A stretch of 64,000 nucleotides of DNA from Methanoplanus sp. FWC-SCC4 (lineage in GTDB: Archaea; Halobacteriota; Methanomicrobia; Methanomicrobiales; Methanomicrobiaceae): the NCBI RefSeq assembly GCF_032878975.1, contig NZ_CP043875.1, positions 1,356,370 through 1,420,369 of the forward strand. Reading direction: 5' to 3'. A model generated the notes under the pieces. The model was given only the letters and a program-made list of their open reading frames with translations, was not told the origin of the DNA and made no database searches. Positions within the stretch are counted from its first letter, which is position 1. Each line of letters begins with the position of its first letter. Below are positions 4,983-27,213 of the stretch, piece by piece. Position numbers and translations under genes: made by a program.

Positions 4983-5644
4983 AAATAACAGGAATATGTG
5001 CAAGCCCAAGAGGAAAAAACAGTAACACCCTTGCACTTGTAAAAGAAGGTCTCAAAGGAGCAAAAGATGCAGGTGCAGAAACAGAATTAATTGACATCTG
5101 TAAAAAAGACATCCGTTACTGCACAGGATGCTCGGTCTGTTATGAAACAGGAAAATGCATTATAAAAGATGACTTTGAAGAGATTTTAGATAAACTTTGT
5201 TCAAGTGACGGGATCATACTTGGATCTCCCAATTATATCAATTCAGTCACAGGCCAGATGAAAACTTTCCTTGACAGGATGGCTGACTGTATCCACTGCC
5301 AGAGACTTCTCGGAAAATACGGATTTTCAGTCTCAACAGCCGGAGGATCAAATTCGGTATTAGTAGCCGGATACCTCAACCAGACACTAAATGTTCTCGG
5401 TGCTGATACAGTGGGACTTGTTTCAATCGACATTGGTGTGGATCCGGATCTGTTTCAGGAAAGCATCGATTATTCATACAATACAGGGATCACTCTTGTA
5501 AATGCCATTAAAGAAAAAAGGGTATATCCGGAACAGAAAAAGTTTCACGATGAAATGAAAAGCAGAATGAAAATGCTGATTCTGGCAAACAAAGATAACT
5601 GGATTCATGAGTACGATTACTGGAAAGATATGGGATGGATTTAA
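4979..5644 (+). CDS. iron-sulfur flavoprotein (Isf family)
   Basis: The 221-residue product has a flavodoxin-like fold: phosphate-binding loop near residues 8-17 (ASPRGKNSNT), GSPNYINSVTGQMKTFLDR for FMN binding, and a late STAGG. It carries the compact cysteine motif of Isf proteins: C48-x2-C51-x2-C54-x5-C60, which binds a 4Fe-4S cluster. Isf proteins of methanogens move electrons between ferredoxin and oxidants such as O2 or H2O2. Overlap with the upstream lipoprotein gene implies one transcript, though a functional link is not obvious. Confidence 0.85.
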   Translation: MKITGICASPRGKNSNTLALVKEGLKGAKDAGAETELIDICKKDIRYCTGCSVCYETGKCIIKDDFEEILDKLCSSDGIILGSPNYINSVTGQMKTFLDRMADCIHCQRLLGKYGFSVSTAGGSNSVLVAGYLNQTLNVLGADTVGLVSIDIGVDPDLFQESIDYSYNTGITLVNAIKEKRVYPEQKKFHDEMKSRMKMLILANKDNWIHEYDYWKDMGWI

Positions 5645-6143: not shown

Positions 6144-7153
6144 GGATGAATAACAATCGGGATTTTCTCACCGCATTTCTGACAGTAACTGCCTTTCAAA
6201 TCTACATTACGCTGGTTATAGCCGGAACGCTGAATCAGGAGCGAACCGCATTCATGACAGTATGTGTTGCAGTATTTATGATCCATAACATTTCCAAGAT
6301 AAGGATATTTTATACCCATATCACGTGCTGTTTCATATATTCTCTCAAGAGTCAAAACAGGAGTGGAGGCCACATCAGTCATCTTATAGTCGGGATGAAA
6401 ACGTGTGAAGTGCATCGGGGTATTTTCACCGAGATTTTCCAAAACCCAGGCAATTAATGATTTCACCTCATCTTCGGAGTCGTTAAGTCCCGGAATTACA
6501 AGATTTACGGTTTCAATATGCATCCCAAGTTCTTTTGCAATGATTGTTGCATCCAGAACAGGCTGAAGCTTTGCTCTGCATACCTTATGGTAAAACTTCT
6601 CTGAAAATGCCTTTATATCAACGCGAAACGCATCAAGCATTACAGAAAGTTCTCTTAGTGCCTCCTCTGTCATATATCCGTTTGTAACATAAATCGTACC
6701 AAGATTATTTTTTTTGGCCATCCGGCCCATGTCAAGTGCATACTCATGCCAGATTGTAGGTTCGTTGTATGTCCAGGCTATGCTCTTGCAGTTATTTGCA
6801 ATTGCCTTTAAAACCCCCTTTTCAGGACTAATCTCCTGAAGATAATCAAAGGATGTTGTCTGGGATATCTGCCAGTTCTGACAGTGAAGACACCGGAAAT
6901 TACAGCCGACACCTCCAAGTGAATACACATCTGTTCCGGGAAGATAGTGAAATAGGGGCTTTTTTTCAACAGGATCAACCGCTTCAGCACTTACCATACC
7001 ATAATTTTTTGAAAATAGTTTGCAGCCATTGTTTTCCCTGACGCCACAGATACCGGTTTTATTTTCTCCTATTAAGCACCTGTGACTGCAAAGGTTGCAT
7101 TTTACAAAACCATCCTCCCGGCAGTCATATAAATGAGCTTCATGCATGTCCAA
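6140..7153 (-). CDS. AmmeMemoRadiSam-type radical SAM enzyme
   Basis: The 337-residue product has the radical SAM cluster motif C84-x3-C88-x2-C91 (GCNFRCLHCQNW). N-terminal cysteines CNLCSHRC (19-26) and GICGV follow the pattern of this subfamily, related to pyruvate-formate-lyase activating enzymes. WTYNEPTIWHEY and HFTRFHPDYKM are further family hallmarks, and the C-terminus carries an extra zinc-ribbon-like pair (CHEC, CQKC). The natural substrate is unknown. The usual partners Memo and AMMECR1 are not nearby; the Mut7-C RNase gene is coupled instead. A second ATG two codons in (7147) is also possible. Confidence 0.85.
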   Translation of the reverse strand: MDMHEAHLYDCREDGFVKCNLCSHRCLIGENKTGICGVRENNGCKLFSKNYGMVSAEAVDPVEKKPLFHYLPGTDVYSLGGVGCNFRCLHCQNWQISQTTSFDYLQEISPEKGVLKAIANNCKSIAWTYNEPTIWHEYALDMGRMAKKNNLGTIYVTNGYMTEEALRELSVMLDAFRVDIKAFSEKFYHKVCRAKLQPVLDATIIAKELGMHIETVNLVIPGLNDSEDEVKSLIAWVLENLGENTPMHFTRFHPDYKMTDVASTPVLTLERIYETARDMGIKYPYLGNVMDHKYCNTYCHECGSLLIQRSGYNQRNVDLKGSYCQKCGEKIPIVIHP

Positions 7154-26992: not shown

Positions 26993-27213
26993 GGGGTCGT
27001 GGCCTAGTCCGGCATGGCGACGGGCTCCAACGGTCTTTGCGTATGATGAACAATGGGTCTGCTGATTTGATGATGATCCGTTGGAGCGCTGATGCAAACA
27101 TGTCTTATGATCTGATCATAAGATGACCGGTTTGATGATGTAAATCACGCTTGAAAATGTAACGCATGTACGGAGAGACCCGTCGATCGTGAGTTCAAAT
27201 CTCACCGACCCCA
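26993..27213 (+). tRNA. tRNA-Trp (anticodon CCA) with a 147-base intron
   Basis: Exon 1 (26993-27030): acceptor GGGGTCG, D-arm, anticodon stem ACGGG, then CTCCAA with anticodon CCA at 27027-27029. Exon 2 (27178-27213): A38, CCCGT, T-arm GTGAG-TTCAAAT-CTCAC, acceptor CGACCCC, discriminator A. The splice site is a bulge-helix-bulge: CTCC (27025-27028) pairs with GGAG (27172-27175), flanked by three-base bulges AAC and AGA, each cut after its second base. That puts the intron at 27031-27177. The intron carries a box C/D guide. Confidence 0.93.
27043..27092 (+). ncRNA. box C/D guide RNA inside the tRNA-Trp intron
   Basis: Elements in order: box C ATGATGA (27043-27049), D' CTGA (27062-27065), C' TTGATGA (27067-27073), D CTGA (27089-27092). 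The guide before D pairs with ten bases across the exon 1/intron junction (27024-27033); its fifth base from the D box meets C34. The guide before D' pairs with 27176-27183, with one G-U pair, and its fifth base meets C39. These match the Cm34 and position-39 targets known for the Haloferax tRNA-Trp intron. TGCGT/ACGCA (27038-27042, 27162-27166) forms a closing stem. A further 70 bases with a nine-base hairpin arm (TCTTATGAT/ATCATAAGA) follow. Confidence 0.82.

Follow-up and report, generated by a model that had tools for sequence, protein, structure and literature searches.

A tail element complementary to guide 2 in archaeal tRNA-Trp introns, and its likely counterpart in Methanoplanus sp. 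FWC-SCC4

The tRNA-Trp intron of Methanoplanus sp. FWC-SCC4 is a known box C/D dual guide whose predicted targets, C34 and C39, lie in the precursor that contains it. The long tail that follows its box D is probably no further guide but a structural partner for guide 2. In most tailed relatives, a short stretch of the tail, here called the anti-guide, is predicted to pair with a segment that runs from the 3′ half of guide 2 through the base before box D into the first bases of that box; guide 1 would pair with the 5′ half of guide 2. Such a structure is well supported in the group, and from it we infer a function in keeping the guide apart from the splice motif.

Results

The window, which is the whole stretch of 64,000 nucleotides that was analysed, holds a tRNA-Trp(CCA) gene at 26993-27213, on the + strand like all other features of the window given below, read from the sequence and with the CCA end not encoded. 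ARAGORN did not report a tRNA-Trp gene at these positions, presumably because of the intron. Exon 1 extends over 26993-27030, with C34 at 27027, and exon 2 over 27178-27213, with C39 at 27179; the intron between them, of 147 nt (27031-27177), lies between positions 37 and 38, as read from the bulge-helix-bulge. The central helix of this motif is formed by CTCC (27025-27028), which is at the same time its 5′ strand and the target of guide 2, and GGAG (27172-27175), flanked by the 3-nt bulges AA/C and AG/A (the slash marking the exon-intron border), and both strands are paired in the minimum free energy fold of the precursor. The first-pass annotation had reported a tRNA-Trp intron of 147 bases, with correct coordinates and anatomy, and had described it as longer than the roughly 105 bases of haloarchaea, a figure to be corrected to 103 nt for Haloferax volcanii (PMC7714728, PMC2584109). 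Intron lengths range from 94 to 147 nt in the family of the window (f1) and go down to 75 nt in other Methanomicrobiales families, and length differences of this kind are ordinary. The splice motif has an irregular inner helix (27031-27042 with 27163-27171): A27170, mostly T in relatives, results in either a relaxed motif or GT/AC pairing with a 5′ bulge of 4 nt.

A dual guide RNA of the sR3 type covers positions 27039-27094 (Rfam RF01133, 62.5 bits, E 4.1e-13, against a gathering score of 41 bits), and the match places the guide anatomy far above chance level. It consists of box C (ATGATGA, 27043-27049), guide 1 (27050-27061), box D′ (CTGA, 27062-27065), box C′ (ATGATGA, 27070-27076), guide 2 (27077-27088) and box D (CTGA, 27089-27092), so the presence of all four boxes, proposed from the letters alone, is borne out by both the sequence and the family match. 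The same applies to the proposal that the fifth bases meet C34 and C39 of the unspliced precursor, as counting five bases upstream leads from D′ to G27057, opposite C39 (27179), and from D to G27084, opposite C34 (27027). Between 27078-27087 of guide 2 and 27024-27033 the duplex is perfect over 10 bp, and as it extends three bases into the intron, the full target of guide 2 is found in the unspliced precursor only. The base before box D does not take part in the pairing with the target; opposite it in the window is G27023, which makes a mismatch. Within guide 1, CAATGGGTC is complementary also to GATCCGTTG in the C′/guide 2 region of the window, and for the introns tested the complementarity between guide 1 and this region has a median of 8 bp, compared with 4.7 in shuffles; part of this may reflect that the two guides match neighbouring stretches of exon.

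Guide 2 (CCGTTGGAGC) and the guide 1 core GGGTCT are retained in nearly all Methanomicrobiales introns examined, and a loss of guide complementarity in relatives, which the first-pass annotation had named as evidence against its reading, was looked for in these introns and not encountered. The sR3 match was obtained in 193 of the 232 genomes of the order that were searched, and among good-quality genomes in 130 of 135, with scores that clearly exceed the gathering score in the window as well as in most of the Methanomicrobiales genomes. The reading of the intron as a dual guide for its own precursor, as in Haloferax, is right and concerns a known system. The intronic tRNA-Trp guide has been described in at least 29 archaea (PMC2584109, PMC7714728, PMC4090602, PMC7994747), and in H. 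volcanii it resides in the 103-nt intron and directs Cm34 and Um39 (PMC2584109, PMC7714728). The H. volcanii intron and the one in the window share the insertion site at 37/38, the C-D′-C′-D guide within the intron, guides that span exon and intron, and targets at positions 34 and 39, and they differ in that the window has C39 instead of U39 and a longer tail after box D. The first-pass annotation had pointed out C in place of U at position 39, which the sequence confirms; as a novelty the C39 target was rejected, since it is an ordinary one, already predicted for the tRNA-Trp of Pyrococcus furiosus (PMC7668247). Judged from the published description alone, the likeness to Pyrococcus includes both C39 as a target and a tRNA-Trp intron that is itself the guide RNA, sR50 being the guide in the pre-tRNA-Trp intron (PMC7994747).

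The tail after box D occupies 27093-27166 in the window (85 nt when counted to the splice site) and is the longest among the Methanomicrobiales introns examined. It contains a hairpin, TCTTATGATC/GATCATAAGA, at 27103-27123, whose arms (27103-27112 and 27114-27123, with 1 nt between them) measure 10 nt each; the first-pass annotation had given it as a nine-base perfect hairpin. The hairpin is present in a single copy in the genome, on which ground the idea that it is a mobile or repeated element was rejected, and among the genomes examined it was found in this one only. Next to it, GACCG (27125-27129), also seen in this genome only, is complementary to the start of the intron, CGGTC (27031-27035), and is paired with it in the minimum-energy fold. 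Further downstream, CGCA (27163-27166) may pair with TGCG (27038-27041) adjoining the splice motif, as suggested by the sequence and by relatives, and TTTGC of the same site has an alternative pairing with GCAAA (27094-27098), the C/D closing stem.

Two further readings of the tail take the C-box-like TTGATGA (27132-27138) as their starting point. According to the first-pass annotation, the extra bases could be a second, degenerate guide unit, in which TTGATGA would serve as a further C box and TTGA (27151-27154) as a D box, with a guide for another target between them. The C-like motif does exist, its TGATGA is found again in tails of g1, g6 and g8 introns, and TTTGATGATG of the tail is an exact repeat of 27066-27075 in the C′ region. 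However, TGATGA is expected in about 30% of dinucleotide shuffles of the window tail, TTGA is not conserved as a box, and the bases after TGATGA vary freely among relatives, with no guide or D-like box conserved downstream of it across eight introns of g1, g6 and g8. As neither a guide nor a D-like box is conserved there, the second guide unit was discarded, and we consider it highly improbable. The second reading concerns g1 and g8, where box D could combine with the TGATGA of the tail and with a hairpin that immediately follows the box into an extra K-turn, that is, a further predicted L7Ae site that competes with normal C/D pairing and would be part of a refolding. In g8 a hairpin does follow box D and ends 3-5 nt before TGATGA, with stems TGCAG/CTGCA, TGCAA/TTGCA and TGCAAAT/ATTTGCA, and in the window CAAAC/GTTTG (27095-27099/27130-27134) can close such a stem. 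On the other hand, the bulge length is not ideal, g6 has no hairpin, and the lineages concerned are closely related, so that the conservation may reflect descent; an extra K-turn is a very unlikely explanation of the tail.

In the comparison with other introns, a check proposed together with the second guide, the recurrent feature of the tails proved to be a short sequence complementary to guide 2 and box D. A total of 296 loci were compared, and the tailed set comprised 84 distinct introns from 27 genera and 9 families, whose tails usually hold a sequence complementary to GAGC[A/G]C and to part of box D. Examples are GAGCACTGA/TCAGTGCTC (L018), GGAGCAC/GTGCTCC in the Methanofollis family (L033), GAGCAC/GTGCTC in family f8 (L283) and GAGCGCTGA/TCAGCGCTC in f14 (L291). 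The whole helix is 76.6% paired, compared with at most 52% when slid, where the selection of the register brings an upward bias for the other pairs of the helix and none for the key pair, formed by the base before box D, since the register was chosen blind to this base and its partner was read afterwards.

Among the 84 introns, the key pair is A-T in 49, G-C in 21, G-T in 4, A-C in 4 and other combinations in 6, which leaves 10 introns without pairing at this position. The 70 Watson-Crick pairs observed compare with a mean of 44 and a maximum of 58 in 20,000 permutations of the partners. The covariation score of the key pair, calculated on 60 distinct guide-partner strings, is 0.680 against 0.375 when shuffled, with none of 500 shuffles as high, and it is the highest of all slides, the slid positions reaching at most 0.416. 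At the level of genera, T and C partners number 15 and 2 for A, and 0 and 7 for G (Fisher p 1e-4), while the combined shuffle test over the 27 genera gives p 9e-8, the genera being related and their counts not fully independent. Because the base before box D is unpaired with the tRNA target, complementarity to the target cannot explain this covariation; in the tail-less lineage f9 the base is A, G or T. Both A-T and G-C states are found within Methanofollis (f3), within f6, where g14 has G-C and g21 has A-T with three G-T, and within f1, and f14 has G-C. The coexistence of both states in f3, f6 and f1 implies that the exchange probably happened several times, as judged from genus and family labels in place of a tree. 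Exceptions are represented by A.C at the key pair in g7 and in one f28 intron, and by some introns of g8, f22 and f8g50 that have no good helix. A tail is missing from many families (f9, f15, f31 and Methanoculleus), and the element is thus not essential to the system.

The main competing explanation is that of an ordinary intron, with a known guide, a tail that in this species is neutral drifting spacer, and only the C/D core and the splice motif being of importance. It is in agreement with tails that vary across the phylum from almost nothing to more than 100 nt and that many lineages lack, with the anti-guide helix of the window not being significant alone, and with the hairpin and GACCG occurring in this genome only. 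What it does not account for is that the element reappears in most of the nine families and that at least three families contain compensatory changes at the base preceding box D, and we hold it to be rather unlikely. The anti-guide is very probably real in the group.

The proposed anti-guide of the window is CGCTT (27148-27152), which pairs with GAGCG (27084-27088) of guide 2, including the base before box D, and sits where g2 and g8 relatives have GCGCTC or AGCGCTT. The helix has 5 bp and a long loop, with G-C at the key base as expected. Taken alone, it does not stand out against shuffles (p 0.51), its pairing in the ensemble is 0.34, and breaking it does not raise pairing between guide and exon. 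Support for the element in the window hence comes from homology, namely the match in position and pairing with relatives, and not from its own helix, and we find it fairly likely that the anti-guide is real in this species too. The species-specific hairpin, together with the GACCG/CGGTC, TTTGC/GCAAA and TGCG/CGCA pairings, suggests a remodelled version of the structure in the window.

Folding models of the precursors, which represent the RNA with no proteins, salt or temperature, gave a mean pairing of 0.69 between guide 2 and the tail, with values approaching 1.0 in f3 and f30, in most of f8 and in much of f1, so that guide 2 is predicted to be hidden in most long-tailed precursors. Pairing of guide 2 with the exon in cis was near zero in most species with high tail pairing; f6 and many tail-less introns gave higher values. 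When the tail element was replaced by its complement, this cis pairing rose from 0.14 to 0.27 (p 1.6e-7), with 0.16 for control windows, while the predicted pairing of the splice motif, also looked at for an effect of the anti-guide, showed no consistent change (p 0.13). Two introns of 102 nt each, L102 and L057, are present in the folding set as 212 and 514 nt, due to an overrun to a later match.

Discussion

The anti-guide pairing, its covariation and its competition with cis pairing between guide and exon in the folding models are computed results. In regard to the mechanism, guide 2 and the splice motif would compete for CTCC, and a precursor in which the guide holds CTCC should be unable to form the splice motif. 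With guide 2 folded away, the exon is not bound and CTCC is free to form the splice motif with GGAG, so the anti-guide may stop the guide from jamming splicing. An intramolecular hairpin would avoid the trap at CTCC, which fits action in trans, by a ribonucleoprotein assembled on another precursor or on the excised intron. Upon assembly of the C/D proteins, for example on the excised or circular intron, the hairpin would have to open before the guides act, probably in trans. Gating of splicing against methylation, including a weak form of it in the window, is what we infer from these relations. Published work treats the question of cis or trans action of the guide as undecided, with in vitro data favouring trans (PMC2584109, PMC7714728, PMC4090602, PMC7994747). 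A covarying hairpin that hides the guide offers a concrete, mutable element for addressing this question as well as the order of methylation and splicing, and culturable methanogens provide a setting in which such a hairpin could be tested.

Complements of guide 2 are found at other places too. Methanoregula introns (f5, g18) have no tail and carry GTGCTC with varying flanks before box C, complementary to the same bases of guide 2; these elements recur, are marginal when taken one by one (p 0.03-0.11), and face an invariant guide base, so that a complement located upstream of box C instead of in the tail is suggestive only. In the haloarchaeal-type introns examined there is, in place of the tail element, the sequence ACTCCAGA, which lies before guide 1, nearly copies the exon target and could pair with guide 2. 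As a tentative extension, it is quite possible that the tRNA-Trp precursors of many Halobacteriota contain an RNA switch: an internal mimic of the anticodon target would tie up both guide 2 and box D and thereby let the splice motif form, and assembly of the C/D proteins would flip the switch. Such mimics could have originated repeatedly, at sites after box D, before box C or, in haloarchaea, before guide 1.

No description of the anti-guide element was found in the literature searched, which lay outside the main structural studies of 2001-2008, and the element may have been noticed before. The Rfam sR3 model (RF01133) consists of the 55-nt core only, without the tail or the anti-guide hairpin, and the published family model accordingly ends short of the conserved RNA in many species.

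Some introns of the comparison show other additions to the core. In f8, f14, f22, f28 and f30 a hairpin is located between D′ and C′ (L272-L285, L287-L289, L291-L292, L295-L297 and L301-L311), with varied stems such as AACCC/GGGTT, TTTCC/GGAAA and CTCTC/GGGAG and a nearly constant loop region, CGACGG, which repeats part of exon 1 (GCGACGGG). An insertion of about 45-60 nt between D′ and C′, with boxes and guides intact, is found in some introns of the Methanoregulaceae type and in one f2 intron (L042, L084, L106, L129, L139, L140, L159, L236 and L054). Three genomes (G170, G179 and G181) have two sR3 matches each, and on the Methanoregula contig of L159 two matches to the guide core lie about 1.2 kb apart on the - strand, at 5210-5230 and 6428-6448.
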